Assembly: GCA_001803795.1 (NCBI GenBank)
Contig: MHEK01000041.1
Location: 1 to 33,725 of the forward strand
Length of the DNA: 33,725 nucleotides
Origin: Nitrospirae bacterium RBG_16_64_22
GTDB taxonomy: Bacteria > Nitrospirota > RBG-16-64-22
Direction: 5' to 3'
In this document: positions 23-28,007 of the stretch, in pieces
Layout of the letters: every line of letters begins with the position of its first letter
Numbering within the stretch: the first letter of the stretch is position 1
Position numbers and translations under genes: made by a program
Notes under the pieces: model-generated
What the model was told of the DNA's origin: nothing
Database searches by the model: none
Seen by the model: only the letters and a program-made list of their open reading frames with translations

Positions 23-1438
23 CTAGAACCTGTAGCTGTACATCACCTGCGCGCTGGTCTGGCTGTGCGTGTTCGTCACGCCCGACCCGGCCGTTGCCTT
101 GACCTCCGGCGCGTACGAGAGCGCCGCGTCGACGCCCGACGACTTGTCGATGGCATATCCCGCGCCCAGCGTGTAGTGGTTCTTCACGATCGCCGGGAAG
201 AGCGCGTTCAGGTACGTGTCCGGAATCGGGTTGTTGCCGATGTTCGCCCCCGCCCGGACGGTGAACGGAGCTGACACCTTGTACCCGAGACCGACCATGA
301 AGACGTTCTGGTCCTTCCAGTTCTGGAACAATGTCGCGTCGACCGCGCTGCCGGCGAAACCCGCGGCAGCGGCGTTCGACTGCGTCGAGTCGGCCGTAAA
401 CGTCATCGCGAAGTTCTTCATCACGTTCTTCCAGTTGATCCACTTGTAGTCAGCCACGACGAGGAGCTCCTTCGTCGCCTGGAATGCGGCGCCCACGCCG
501 ATCGTCTGGGGCCACTCGAAGTTCTTGACCGCGATTTTCCCGGAGACGGGGATGGTCGTCGTCGCGCCGCCCATGACCACGTTGAACGTCGCCGTGGCTT
601 TGTCCGACTCGAGATCGCCGAGCGCCGTCTTGCTGTGGTACGCCGCGCCCAGCGAAAGCTGGTCGTTCACCTTGTGGACCCCGCCGACCTTCGCGGCCAC
701 ACCGTACCCGCGGGCCTCGCCGGTGAAGTCGCTGGAATTGGAGAAATCGAACCGGCCCCAGTTGAGGGCTGTGATCATCCCGGCCGCCATATAGCTTCCA
801 AACCCGTCAATCATGGTCCCGGAGACCGTTCCCGACGCCTGCGTGGCCGCCGGATTGAGCGTCTTCGGCATCATGTTCATGAACTGGGAACCGCTCATGG
901 GCATCTTGAGATCCAGCCCGGCCCACACGCCCTCGAGGCTCACGGCCACCTTCGTCTTCTTGTCCACTTCCATGACGAACGGGATCACCAGCCGGCCGAC
1001 GGAGAGCTCGGAGCGGGCCTTGTCGCCCGAACCCGCCGCCATGAACGAGTCGGCCGCGTACTCCGTCCCCATGCCGCCCTGGGCGTAAATCCCGAGGCCG
1101 TAGGCCATCATCCCGATGTTCTTGACGTACCCGATCCCAGGCATGATGAAGAGATCGGCCGATGACTTGACGTCAGGCATGCCGGTCATCTTGGCCGTCA
1201 CATTGGGCCCGAGGAACGACAGGGCCACGTCGAGCCGGTCGCCCTGGGCCCCGAGGCCGAGCGTTGCGGGATTGTTCATCATGCCGTACGTGCCGTTGTC
1301 ATACGCCATCGACGCGCCGCCCGCTCCCAAAGCGACCGGGCCGTACCCTTCGAGGTTCATGCCGTTCGTCGCGAAGGCCGGCGGCGCGACGAGCATGATT
1401 CCAAAAACTACTAACCCTAACCACTTCAGCGTCTTCAT
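23..1438 (-). CDS. OmpP1/FadL-family outer membrane transport protein
   Basis: The 471-residue product starts with a clear signal peptide (MKTLKWLGLVVFGIMLVAPP, cleaved after AFA). The mature N-terminus TNGMNLEGYGP resembles the N-terminal hatch of FadL/OmpP1 proteins, followed by ALGAGGASMAY and NNPATLG, typical early motifs of the family. The rest alternates short beta-strands and Gly/Asn turns and ends in an aromatic residue (YSYRF), as expected for an outer-membrane beta-barrel. Family members move hydrophobic compounds such as long-chain fatty acids across the outer membrane; the substrate here is unknown. I chose ATG 1438 because GGGGAGGGG lies just upstream and the signal peptide begins there. 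The open frame continues upstream to 1621, but that part overlaps a terminator-like hairpin and looks non-coding. It is the last gene of the minus-strand block and probably has its own promoter near 1694-1723. Confidence 0.9.
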   Translation of the reverse strand: MKTLKWLGLVVFGIMLVAPPAFATNGMNLEGYGPVALGAGGASMAYDNGTYGMMNNPATLGLGAQGDRLDVALSFLGPNVTAKMTGMPDVKSSADLFIMPGIGYVKNIGMMAYGLGIYAQGGMGTEYAADSFMAAGSGDKARSELSVGRLVIPFVMEVDKKTKVAVSLEGVWAGLDLKMPMSGSQFMNMMPKTLNPAATQASGTVSGTMIDGFGSYMAAGMITALNWGRFDFSNSSDFTGEARGYGVAAKVGGVHKVNDQLSLGAAYHSKTALGDLESDKATATFNVVMGGATTTIPVSGKIAVKNFEWPQTIGVGAAFQATKELLVVADYKWINWKNVMKNFAMTFTADSTQSNAAAAGFAGSAVDATLFQNWKDQNVFMVGLGYKVSAPFTVRAGANIGNNPIPDTYLNALFPAIVKNHYTLGAGYAIDKSSGVDAALSYAPEVKATAGSGVTNTHSQTSAQVMYSYRF

Positions 1439-25501: not shown

Positions 25502-26111
25502 GCGGATGAGAATCGGGGTTCTCTGCTCCGGCCGGGGGTCCAACCTCCAGGCGATTCTCGACGCCTCGCGCGACCCGGCCTACCCGGCCGAGGTTGCCGT
25601 TGTCATAAGCGACAACCCGCGCGCCTACGCGCTCGACCGCGCCCGCGCCCGCGCCGTCCCCGCCGAGGTGATCATCCCCGCGTCGTTCCCGGACCGGATC
25701 CAGCACGATCTGGCCGTCGCCCAGCGCCTGAAAGAATACGGCGTCGGGCTCGTCGCCCTGGCGGGGTACATGAGGATCGTCTCCCCCCAGTTCATCCGCC
25801 GCTTTCCCGGCCGGGTCATGAACATCCACCCCGCGCTTTTGCCGTCCTTTCCTGGTCTCCACGCCCAGAAGCAGGCGGTCCTCTACGGAGTGAAGGTGTC
25901 GGGCGTCACCGTCCACTTCGTGGACGAAGGAGTCGACACGGGACCGATCATCCTGCAAGTCCCCGTCGCCGTGGCCGAGGAGGACACGGAGGAGTCCCTC
26001 TCGGCGCGAATCCTCGAGCACGAGCACCGGGCGTATCCCGAGGCCATCCGCCTCTTCGCCGAGGGCCGAATCAGGGCCGAGGGCCGGCGGGTGTGGATCA
26101 GGCGGTCTTGA
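25491..26111 (+). CDS. purN: Phosphoribosylglycinamide formyltransferase
   Basis: PurN transfers a formyl group from 10-formyl-THF to GAR. The 206-residue protein has LCSGRGSNLQAILDA at the N-terminus and the active-site segment MNIHPALLPSFPG with GVTVHFVDEGVDTGPII downstream (Asn, His and Asp of the family). I chose ATG 25491, with AAGGGGGG six bases upstream; ATG 25506 is also possible. It is the last gene of the operon before the accessory island. Confidence 0.95.
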   Translation: MPGERMRIGVLCSGRGSNLQAILDASRDPAYPAEVAVVISDNPRAYALDRARARAVPAEVIIPASFPDRIQHDLAVAQRLKEYGVGLVALAGYMRIVSPQFIRRFPGRVMNIHPALLPSFPGLHAQKQAVLYGVKVSGVTVHFVDEGVDTGPIILQVPVAVAEEDTEESLSARILEHEHRAYPEAIRLFAEGRIRAEGRRVWIRRS

Positions 26112-26136
26112 ATATTCCACTCAGATGGGGCATAAT
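26108..26136 (+). promoter_or_regulatory. Predicted sigma-70 promoter for hicBA module 1
   Basis: TTGAAT (26108-26113), a 17-bp spacer and CATAAT (26131-26136). It overlaps the end of purN and would start transcripts near 26143, so the GTG at 26180, not the ATG at 26135, is the likely hicB start. Confidence 0.5.
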
Positions 26137-26179
26137 GCAAAAAAAGGGCTGCGCCGAATTCGGCCGGGAGACTGACGTC

Positions 26180-26425
26180 GTGTTCACAGAATACATCCAG
26201 GCGGCGCTTGAAAAGGCGGAGTACAAGAAACTGGACGATGCGACCTGGTTTGCCCAAATCCCCGGCTTTGAAGGCGTGTGGGCGAATGGCAAATACGTCG
26301 AGGAATGCAGAAAGGAGTTGGTCGAAGTCCTGGAGGAGTGGCTTGTTCTCAAGCTGCGGGACGAGGACTCCATTCCCGTTGTCAAGGGCATCGGCATTCG
26401 CGTCAAGGAAATCACAACAACCTGA
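26180..26425 (+). CDS. HicB-family antitoxin (module 1)
   Basis: The 81-residue protein (N-terminus FTEYIQAALEKAEYKKLDDA) matches short HicB antitoxins, with the core TWFAQIPGFEGVWANGKYVE and a C-terminal EVLEEWLVLKLRDED helix. It should neutralise the HicA encoded two bases downstream. GTG 26180 has GGGAG nine bases upstream and gives a family-like N-terminus. This stretch is visibly more A+T-rich than the operon before it, which suggests acquisition. Confidence 0.85.
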   Translation: MFTEYIQAALEKAEYKKLDDATWFAQIPGFEGVWANGKYVEECRKELVEVLEEWLVLKLRDEDSIPVVKGIGIRVKEITTT

Positions 26426-26427
26426 AG

Positions 26428-26640
26428 ATGCCTTCCGTCTCGAGGAAGGAGCTTATCAGAAAATTCAGGGCGCTGGGATACTTCGGGCCTTTTTCGGGCG
26501 GCAGGCATCAGTTCATGATTCAGGGCTCAAAGAAAATCCGCATTCCGAATCCACATGGAAGCGGAGACATCGATATCAGTCTGTTGAAGGAAATACTCAA
26601 ACAGGCAGGTATTGACCGAAACGCGTGGGAACAAGCTTAA
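26428..26640 (+). CDS. HicA-family mRNA-interferase toxin (module 1)
   Basis: The 70-residue protein folds as a dsRBD-like HicA toxin that cleaves mRNA. The catalytic His lies in FSGGRHQFM, in the usual G(S/x)(H/R)H context. The C-terminal segment reads ISLLKEILKQAGIDRNAW. The gene begins two bases after the hicB stop, antitoxin first. Only three bases follow its stop before the tRNA-Ala fragment. Confidence 0.87.
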   Translation: MPSVSRKELIRKFRALGYFGPFSGGRHQFMIQGSKKIRIPNPHGSGDIDISLLKEILKQAGIDRNAWEQA

Positions 26641-26643
26641 CGT

Positions 26644-26695
26644 GGGGGGTTAGCTCAGCTGGGAGAGCGTCCCGATTGCATCGGGAAGGTCGTGG
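26644..26695 (+). pseudogene. Truncated tRNA-Ala (anticodon TGC), 5' two-thirds only
   Basis: GGGGGGT plus a complete D-arm (TAGCTCAGCTGGGAGAGCG) and an anticodon arm TCCCG-ATTGCAT-CGGGA (anticodon TGC) are intact. The sequence stops after AGGTCGTGG, in the T-arm, and the GIY-YIG reading frame starts there. The first 26 bases are identical to those of the intact tRNA-Ala at 26958. It cannot form a functional tRNA alone. Confidence 0.85.
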
Positions 26696-26949
26696 AACTT
26701 ATGGAAGAGGTCTACACCGTCTACGTTCTTCAAAGCGAGAAGGACGGATCCTTCTACATCGGCCAAACAAGGAACTTGACCGGAAGACTCATCCGTCACA
26801 ACGCGGGCGCGGTCACATCCACAAAGGCAAGGCGCCCCTGGATCGTTGTCTGGGGCCAGACTTTTCCCGATCGGAGCGAAGCGATACGCAGGGAAAAAGA
26901 ATTGAAGAAACAAAAGAGCAGGAGGTTTCTCCAAGATTTGATAAAGTAA
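26692..26949 (+). CDS. Small single-domain GIY-YIG nuclease
   Basis: The 85-residue protein is a stand-alone GIY-YIG domain of the UvrC/URI-like type. The motif YTVYVLQ...GSFYIGQT supplies the two signature Tyr-containing segments, with the catalytic Arg in NLTGRLIRHNAG and the Glu in EAIRREKELKK. The C-terminus RRFLQDLIK is typical. Such small GIY-YIG proteins are considered mobile or repair nucleases. The frame opens at GTG 26692 inside the tRNA fragment; ATG 26701 is the next start (GGA six bases upstream). It ends eight bases before the intact tRNA-Ala. Confidence 0.85.
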   Translation: MELMEEVYTVYVLQSEKDGSFYIGQTRNLTGRLIRHNAGAVTSTKARRPWIVVWGQTFPDRSEAIRREKELKKQKSRRFLQDLIK

Positions 26950-26957
26950 ATACCATT

Positions 26958-27033
26958 GGGGGGTTAGCTCAGCTGGGAGAGCGCTAGAATCGCACTCTAG
27001 AGGTCGTGGGTTCGATCCCCATACCCTCCACCA
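26958..27033 (+). tRNA. tRNA-Ala (anticodon CGC)
   Basis: The 76-nt gene includes an encoded CCA. The acceptor GGGGGGT pairs with ACCCTCC with one G-T pair. The anticodon stem CTAGA/TCTAG frames ATCGCAC, with anticodon CGC. The T-arm is GTGGG-TTCGATC-CCCAT. All arms close, so it should be functional. It directly follows the GIY-YIG gene. Confidence 0.95.
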
Positions 27034-27064
27034 TTAAACTCCCGAACCCAGCCAGGATCTCCCC

Positions 27065-27103
27065 GGAGAGCGTCCCGATTCCTGATCGGGATACCGTCCA
27101 CCA
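27065..27103 (+). pseudogene. tRNA-Ala fragment (D-arm end, anticodon-like hairpin, acceptor end)
   Basis: GGAGAGCGTCCCGATT is identical to 26662-26677 of the truncated tRNA. It is followed by a perfect TCCCGAT-TCCTG-ATCGGGA hairpin and then ATACCGTCCACCA, which matches the 3' end of the intact tRNA at 12 of 13 positions. The T-arm and 5' acceptor are missing. An A-run follows. Confidence 0.75.
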
Positions 27104-27134
27104 AAAAAAATTTATCCAAGGGGAGGGACGACGG

Positions 27135-27335
27135 ATGAAGCTCCACGTCGTGATCGAACGTGACGAACTCGGCTACTTTGTCGCTGAAGTTCCCGCTCTG
27201 CCCGGTTGCCTGTCCCAGGGGACCACGGAGCAGGAAGCGTTGGCGAACATCAAGGAAGCGATCGAAGGCTGGCTTGAGGTCATGGAAGAAAAACACGCGA
27301 TCGATCGGACAAAGGCGGTCGAGGTCCTTGTATAG
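27135..27335 (+). CDS. HicB-family antitoxin (module 2)
   Basis: The 66-residue protein (MKLHVVIERDELGYFVAEVP, then ALPGCLSQGTTEQEALANIK) is a typical short HicB with the D-x-x-G-Y-x-V-x-x-P-x-L-P-G-C motif. No separate DNA-binding domain is present. ATG 27135 has GGGAGGG eight bases upstream. The TAG stop shares its G with the GTG start of the toxin gene. Confidence 0.9.
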   Translation: MKLHVVIERDELGYFVAEVPALPGCLSQGTTEQEALANIKEAIEGWLEVMEEKHAIDRTKAVEVLV

Positions 27336-27556
27336 TGACCGAGCCTCTAAGGCTTTGTTCCGGAACCGAGGCGGTCCGAAAGTTCCAGAAGGCCGGTTGG
27401 ACGCTCGCGCGGCGGAAGGGTTCCCACGCCATGCTTACCAAGCCCGGTTATCCCTGGACCCTTTCAGTCCCGCAACACGGAGAGCTTGGCTTCGGTCTCT
27501 TGCGAAAGCTCCTCCGCCAAGCCGGTCTCTCGATCGAGGAGTTCAACGGTCTCTAA
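27335..27556 (+). CDS. HicA-family mRNA-interferase toxin (module 2)
   Basis: The 73-residue protein has the HicA pattern: TEAVRKFQKAGWTLARRKGS, the catalytic His in KGSHAML, SVPQHGELGFGLLRKLLRQA and the end GLSIEEFNGL. The GTG 27335 start overlaps the hicB stop by one base. It is only distantly related to the module 1 HicA (different His context and C-terminus), so the two pairs are not recent duplicates. Confidence 0.9.
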   Translation: MTEPLRLCSGTEAVRKFQKAGWTLARRKGSHAMLTKPGYPWTLSVPQHGELGFGLLRKLLRQAGLSIEEFNGL

Positions 27557-27581
27557 TCCGTCAACCGGTCTCCGTGTCTTC

Positions 27582-28007
27582 TCAGGCCGTCCCCGCGTCG
27601 GAAACCAAGAAGTATCCCCTGTCCTCCCTGACCTCCGGCGAAAGCTCTTTGTGGGGGGCGTGCAGGGTCGGGTAGTGCTGGAGCAGAAGCTCCCGCAACC
27701 CCGAGTAGTTGTCGCCCGAAAGATAGCGCCGGATCGGGACCGTCGTCCCTCCCTCGACGGAATGGGCGTAGAAGTAGACCTCGATCACGGGTTCGAGACG
27801 TTCCGGGGCGATCTGCTCCGCCCACTCCATCAATGCCTCCGCGTCCACCCAGTACGACACGACCGGGTCCTCGACGGCAAACCCGTGCGCCTTCTCCATA
27901 TAGTAGCGCCACAGTTGGAACTCCTCCAGCGCCACGTACCGGACGTTGTCCACGTCCGAGCTTCCGTTCTGCCTCAGCCGGCACTTCACCAACTTGATCT
28001 TCCGCAT
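27582..28007 (-). CDS. Protein of unknown function
   Basis: The 141-residue soluble protein begins MRKIKLVKCRLRQNGSSDVD and is rich in Tyr, Trp and acidic residues (for example LWRYYMEKAHGFAVEDPVVS). No signal peptide or membrane segment is visible. GGGAGGGGAT precedes ATG 28007, a strong coding sign. It lies 54 bp after the lipoprotein on the same strand, so it may be the last gene of the pil operon. I do not recognise a family. Confidence 0.7.
   Translation of the reverse strand: MRKIKLVKCRLRQNGSSDVDNVRYVALEEFQLWRYYMEKAHGFAVEDPVVSYWVDAEALMEWAEQIAPERLEPVIEVYFYAHSVEGGTTVPIRRYLSGDNYSGLRELLLQHYPTLHAPHKELSPEVREDRGYFLVSDAGTA

Follow-up and report, generated by a model that had tools for sequence, protein, structure and literature searches.

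The tRNA-Ala locus

The DNA analysed here is contig C41 (MHEK01000041.1; 33,725 nucleotides, referred to below as the window) of the 2.38-Mb, 118-contig genome of Nitrospirae bacterium RBG_16_64_22 (G000), which carries a compact unit at 26644-27103 consisting of a GIY-YIG nuclease gene and an intact transfer RNA (tRNA) gene enclosed between 5′ and 3′ tRNA remnants. Across the related loci described below, such units are inserted at tRNA genes, keep an intact tRNA and are bounded on the outside by polarised dead tRNA copies in which palindromes replace tRNA arms, while the nuclease clade matches the tRNA isotype. At a probability of roughly 0.62, we read the unit as a minimal, isotype-specific mobile element of tRNA genes, in which a freestanding homing-type nuclease would use dead tRNA pieces as homology arms and in which the neighbouring hicBA genes are not involved.

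The locus runs from the end of purN at 26111 to an open reading frame (ORF) on the opposite strand at 27582-28007 that is conserved in the genus, and its order is purN, hicB1-hicA1, a broken tRNA-Ala, the GIY-YIG gene, the intact tRNA-Ala(CGC), a second broken tRNA and hicB2-hicA2. The features, with tRNA positions in nucleotides (nt), are as follows:

26135-26425, plus strand: hicB1, antitoxin-like gene, neighbour outside the element (PF21748, 1.1e-27)
26428-26640, plus strand: hicA1, toxin-like gene, neighbour (PF07927, 3e-11)
26644-26669, plus strand: left remnant, identical to nt 1-26 of the intact tRNA-Ala
26670-26686, plus strand: palindrome TCCCGAT-TGC-ATCGGGA in place of the anticodon arm (nt 27-43)
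26687-26695, plus strand: left remnant continued, tRNA nt 44-52 (homologous in G006)
26701-26949, plus strand: single-domain GIY-YIG nuclease gene (PF01541, 1.4e-16)
26958-27033, plus strand: intact tRNA-Ala(CGC), restored host gene (ARAGORN; Rfam 61.9 bits)
27065-27072, plus strand: right remnant, tRNA nt 19-26 (the G006 homologue is longer)
27073-27091, plus strand: palindrome TCCCGAT-TCCTG-ATCGGGA of the right remnant, in place of nt 27-64
27092-27103, plus strand: end of the right remnant, tRNA nt 65-76 (taccgtccacca); the native 3′ flank with poly-A and hicB2 comes next
27135-27335, plus strand: hicB2, antitoxin-like gene, native neighbour (PF15919, 8e-11; start also in G016)
27335-27556, plus strand: hicA2, toxin-like gene, native neighbour (PF07927, 4.8e-15)

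An earlier sequence-only reading of this DNA had named two HicBA pairs, a GIY-YIG nuclease, an intact tRNA-Ala and two tRNA fragments, all of which are present; the palindromes within the fragments it did not mention. Its description of the two HicB proteins as unrelated agrees with their different Pfam families (PF21748 and PF15919), and the A+T-richer stretch that it placed after the purN end is evident from a G+C content of 0.51-0.55 at the locus versus 0.66-0.70 across purM-purN, returning to about 0.6 downstream. The left tRNA-Ala piece (26644-26695) scores 28.9 bits with the Rfam tRNA model, just under the gathering score of 29, and breaks off in the T arm where the GIY-YIG gene starts, at the ATG at 26701 or possibly at the upstream GTG at 26692. 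The whole right piece spans 27065-27103.

Linkage of GIY-YIG genes to tRNA genes

The association is far more general than the single locus. With the window protein as query and no neighbourhood criterion, 296 genomes of the phylum gave 82 usable GIY-YIG genes, and 47 of these have a tRNA or transfer-messenger RNA (tmRNA) gene at a distance of at most 400 base pairs (bp), on the same strand in all 47 cases; the chance rate of such adjacency is about 1.6%, with 33 tRNA genes in the window genome. In the tRNA-linked clade of the tree 42 of the 46 genes are adjacent, versus 5 of the 36 other GIY-YIG genes (p = 4e-13); the non-adjacent genes fall mostly in those other branches, and these serve as an internal control. 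Independently of this, 22 of 29 GIY-YIG genes found by similarity only in 198 Bacteroidota genomes lie near a tRNA (same strand, 22/22), with tRNA remnants present in 19 of the 22.

GTDB contigs scanned with a small profile of the family yielded 59 loci, which with two viral loci give 69 GIY-YIG places, 52 of them near a tRNA and all 52 on its strand; since the scan was seeded with linked members, these numbers show breadth and not an unbiased rate. Its reach includes Thermodesulfobacteriota, Myxococcota, Bacteroidota, Ignavibacteriota, Planctomycetota and Patescibacteria-type phyla. The isotypes concerned are Ala, Asp, Asn, Ser, Pro, Val, Arg, Glu, Gln, Lys, Ile, Phe and Cys, with weaker evidence for Met, Tyr and tmRNA. 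An origin from viruses was considered and rejected, as the viral collection gave just two relatives, neither with an adjoining tRNA, and plasmids gave a single weak relative.

Two further groups of loci deserve mention. At L028, L031, L050, L053 and L076 the GIY-YIG gene is found 155-290 bp downstream of tmRNA on the same strand, and these genes belong mostly to a separate clade. In three Peribacteria-type genomes (L146, L148 and L155) it follows tRNA-Arg(CCU) by 138-164 bp with no recognisable remnant.

Anatomy of the remnants

Partial tRNA copies occur at 69 of 89 loci, whereas a reversed-tRNA control gave 0 of 89. They are also polarised. With duplicates removed (84 loci), the first base of a left copy corresponds to tRNA nt 1-3 in 52 of 80 cases, and a right copy runs to the 3′ end of the tRNA in 54 of 78; the opposite polarity occurred in a single case. 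The nuclease gene precedes the intact tRNA at some loci, that of the window among them, and follows it at others, and the same rule holds for the remnants in either arrangement.

Perfect inverted repeats of at least 6 bp are located directly at the 3′ junction of the remnant in 50 of 103 cases, compared with 8 of 515 random places, and map mostly to the anticodon arm (nt 24-41), less often to the D loop or the T arm. In two Bacteroidota tRNA-Ser loci (L127 and L130) a 22-nt insert is placed exactly between nt 36 and 37, with zero deletion. The palindromes of the window measure 17 nt on the left, where a 17-nt anticodon arm is replaced, and 19 nt of the same type on the right. Neither type of palindrome turned out to be a mobile repeat dispersed over its genome. 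The pattern TCCCGATN{2,9}ATCGGGA occurs at only two places in the 2.38-Mb window genome, namely the two tRNA remnants, by which TCCCGAT...ATCGGGA is rejected as such a repeat. The Bacteroidota palindrome TCTCTACGG..GTAGAGA is rejected likewise, with six places in G296, four of them in the L160 array and two around its fourth GIY-YIG copy, which is on C4.

Empty, solo-remnant and filled sites

The tRNA-Ala(CGC) site is filled in the window genome and in G006 and empty in G016, both of the same genus; the G016 tRNA is 100% identical to the window copy, has neither remnants nor a GIY-YIG gene, and is directly followed by the native 3′ flank. At tRNA-Ala(GGC) in the same genus G016 is again empty, G006 has a right remnant and then the native 3′ flank, and the window genome carries two identical 91-bp palindrome-armed 5′ tRNA-Ala units before the intact tRNA (L180; C60, approximately 1517-1776). 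These two units occupy precisely the junction of the native 5′ flank with the tRNA, have no nuclease nearby, and thus represent solo remnants.

In another genus the tRNA-Ala(GGC) site is empty in G125 and G103, has a solo 3′ remnant in G302, and is filled in G257, with the nuclease upstream, and in G214, with the nuclease downstream; the last two nucleases belong to different GIY-YIG clades at one tRNA with homologous flanks. For tRNA-Asp, empty sites (G303, G261, G301 and G299), solo remnants (G125 and G257) and sites with a nuclease (G135 and G004) are all found. In the comparisons of filled and empty sites the flanks resume at the tRNA ends.

Tandem organisation is also seen. At L267 tRNA-Pro is followed by four units of a GIY-YIG gene plus tRNA nt 45-75 with a period of 322 bp, and at L268 three tandem units precede tRNA-Ser. 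Such arrays, in which three or four near-identical units adjoin a single tRNA (L267, L268, L160 and L130), show repeated gain or amplification.

The sequence-only reading had proposed an insertion hot spot at a tRNA gene, which these states bear out at the tRNA of the window and at others. A uniform layout with no empty sites, which it had named as the mark of ordinary fixed context, was not found across the related genomes, and the mobile reading stands because empty sites exist. Both mobility and target specificity of the element are well supported by these sequence comparisons.

Correspondence of nuclease clade and tRNA isotype

In a tree of 47 linked rows the tRNA isotype requires 7 changes for 6 states, versus 27 changes for 19 states of the host family. 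The 11 Asn rows and the 5 Asp rows each form one clade, with support values of 97/95 and 100/98, respectively, and a wider tree contains an Ala clade of 11 that extends across Nitrospirota, Thermodesulfobacteriota and Myxococcota. Among the linked rows, the GIY-YIG clade thus tracks the tRNA isotype and not the host family. An unplanned test of this specificity is provided by the window genome, where a truncated GIY-YIG relic about 35 nt after tRNA-Asn (L181; G000:C61, approximately 461-592, minus strand) has its best matches in the Asn clade.

The nuclease

The GIY-YIG catalytic residues are retained: the Y, Y-x-G, R and E columns do not vary across the alignment of the family. The ratio of nonsynonymous to synonymous substitution rates (dN/dS) is 0.08-0.22 in four pairs of relatives with unsaturated dS, one of which includes a copy with an internal stop, and by these values the nuclease is under constraint. 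A single-sequence structure prediction of the window protein reached a predicted local distance difference test (pLDDT) score of 68 and was not used. Bacteria commonly encode small single-domain GIY-YIG proteins, most of which, to our knowledge, have no known role.

As in homing elements, the gene lies beside a candidate target gene for which both filled and empty alleles exist, and the neighbouring tRNA is the probable cleavage target. A group I intron was rejected, as an Rfam scan of 26000-27700 gave tRNA alone.

A proposed mechanism

The arrangement suggests how the element might move. The nuclease would first cut the cognate tRNA gene on a recipient chromosome, the anticodon arm being the likeliest place, and repair would then copy the DNA that lies between the donor's two dead tRNA pieces, to which the broken halves are homologous. 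The recipient would thereby gain the nuclease gene and, with no loss of the tRNA, a fresh intact copy of it; the native flanks of the recipient would come to lie outside the dead pieces, as in the comparisons of filled and empty sites. The palindromes in the arms of the dead pieces would keep the nuclease from cutting the ends of its own element. Finally, the intact tRNA would stay open to further cuts, so that units may pile up in tandem, which would account for the arrays. With the conserved tRNA itself as homology arms shared flanks would be unneeded, and transfer across phyla would thus be possible. Cleavage in the anticodon arm, the dead copies as repair templates and the protective palindromes are the parts of the model that we infer.

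Several observations weigh against this reading, and self-immunity is its weakest point. The intact tRNA of the element is identical to that of the empty site, which means that self-cutting would have to be limited by something besides the tRNA sequence; repeated self-cutting could, on the other hand, explain the arrays. Some relatives (L119, L121, L144, L163 and L165) have no nearby tRNA, and at L266 (G358:C34) eight tandem GIY-YIG genes about 365 bp apart are found with no tRNA in 5.4 kb. Palindromes of the TCCCGA type are dispersed away from tRNA genes in several Nitrospirota genomes, and the palindrome sequences vary between lineages. The proteins are short and yield a tree of few columns, and the wider tree requires 25 changes for isotype and the same number for phylum, so that long-range transfer between phyla is suggested but not proved. 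Finally, the 85-amino-acid protein consists of the GIY-YIG domain only; as no separate DNA-binding region for a long recognition site was found in it, the nuclease is described here as working like a freestanding GIY-YIG homing endonuclease, with its membership in that class left open.

Of the alternatives, the one that survives best is an SLX1-like, structure-specific nuclease that would cut cruciforms of tRNA-gene arms or palindromes, in which case the palindromes would be its substrate and means of movement and not a protection. The sequence relatives in the PDB do include SLX1 and UPF0213 proteins, the remnant junctions bear perfect palindromes, and at L160 and L269 both remnants of one locus have the identical palindrome. 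Such an activity alone, however, leaves the match of clade and isotype unexplained, and palindromes of the same type occur elsewhere in some genomes, for instance in G016, a genome with no match to the window nuclease; we regard this explanation as unlikely.

The isotype-specific clades, the same-strand linkage to the matching tRNA and the centring of the palindromes on the anticodon arm would also suit a nuclease acting on RNA, a toxin or anticodon nuclease for which the palindrome-armed pseudo-tRNAs would be decoys or an RNA antitoxin, the linkage being selected for regulation. We consider this quite improbable. A decoy need not be partial, repeated and made of differing tRNA portions, nor have exactly the polarity of an insertion into a gene, nor persist as a solo remnant without the nuclease, nor be followed immediately by the native flank.

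Integration at the tRNA by a site-specific recombinase of another element, with the GIY-YIG gene as passive cargo and the remnants as scars of attachment (att) sites, is very improbable. tRNA genes are common attachment sites, and the duplication of 5′ or 3′ tRNA parts at the edges does resemble integrase islands, but there is no integrase (no recombinase domain was detected in the eight window ORFs scanned), the entire unit is only about 0.3-0.5 kb, the GIY-YIG gene, the sole gene held by the window unit apart from the tRNA, is the only one common to all units, and its clade tracks the isotype. Least probable of all is that tRNA genes were duplicated in tandem and decayed neutrally, with the GIY-YIG gene hitch-hiking, since, although tandem units and decayed copies exist, the adjacency is far over the base rate in two phyla, the remnants have exact polarity and perfect junction palindromes, and the nuclease is under purifying selection.

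Neighbouring genes

In each of the two pairs flanking the unit, a gene with a HicA domain adjoins or overlaps one with a HicB domain, and a toxin-antitoxin role is predicted for both pairs. Toxin-antitoxin addiction had been put forward in the sequence-only reading as a possible means of holding the insertion, a suggestion that finds no support in the 149 loci of GIY-YIG relatives, from which hicBA is almost entirely missing: relatives of hicBA1 are found only in G006, and those of hicBA2 are absent except for one weak hicB-like match at the far edge of L017. HicBA is accordingly rejected as a component of the element and is a bystander. In G016 the start of hicB2 directly follows the empty tRNA, by which hicB2 belongs to the old neighbourhood. 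The window pairs are thus like type II toxin-antitoxin systems in their domains and differ in being mere neighbours, nearly always absent from related loci.

Other genes occupy the corresponding positions in the two relatives. The purN-tRNA interval of G016 (L045, approximately 1171-1527) contains a 118-amino-acid ORF flanked by short CAGAGGGGCATAGG-type repeats, presumably resembling the four-helix protein of 23S rRNA intervening sequences, and is another cargo at the same spot. In G006 (L046, approximately 565-1190, minus strand) a putative antitoxin-VapC/PIN toxin pair replaces hicBA2 after the right remnants.

Significance and comparison with known systems

If the elements act as proposed, the match of clade and tRNA means that each clade predicts the tRNA gene on which its nuclease should act, and the function of a large orphan GIY-YIG branch becomes directly testable. 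The link would account for many of the odd partial tRNA copies in genomes and would mean that integrases are not the only way in which foreign DNA is drawn to tRNA genes. It would also make available a natural collection of numerous small nucleases whose targets are related and predictable. The odds are about even that these units form an undescribed, widespread class of 0.3-0.5 kb one-gene elements which spread between chromosomes by a specific break in a tRNA gene and copying-in between two dead tRNA copies, with the palindromes as part of the mechanism.

No description of bacterial tRNA-nested GIY-YIG elements was found in open-licence papers of PubMed Central (PMC), a scope that does not cover subscription papers; within it the result agrees with the sequence-only reading, which knew of no described system of this layout. 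Words denoting tRNA-gene neighbours do not turn up in the searchable text of a phylogenomic study of the GIY-YIG superfamily that covers gene neighbourhoods (PMC1564403).

Among known systems, three invite comparison. Genomic islands targeted to tRNA genes use tyrosine integrases; like the present elements, they insert at a tRNA gene, retain an intact tRNA and duplicate a part of it at the edge, whereas the present elements have no integrase, measure 0.3-0.5 kb, have remnants on both sides and carry palindromes in place of tRNA arms. The double-hairpin elements of fungal mitochondria are short palindromic inserts in GIY-YIG-rich genomes, and we know of none in split tRNA copies or paired with an isotype-specific bacterial nuclease.

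The closest known system is SegB, a freestanding GIY-YIG homing endonuclease from the tRNA region of phages T4 and T6, whose recombination can amplify tRNA-segB units into tandem repeats (PMC2988022, PMC13096335). Both systems place a freestanding GIY-YIG nuclease beside tRNA genes, the target of SegB lies in the tRNA region, and tandem repeats are possible. SegB, however, is located between phage tRNA genes, whereas the present elements occur in bacterial chromosomes of several phyla and at many isotypes, are nested in split dead tRNA copies with palindromic arms, and encode a bare 85-amino-acid domain.

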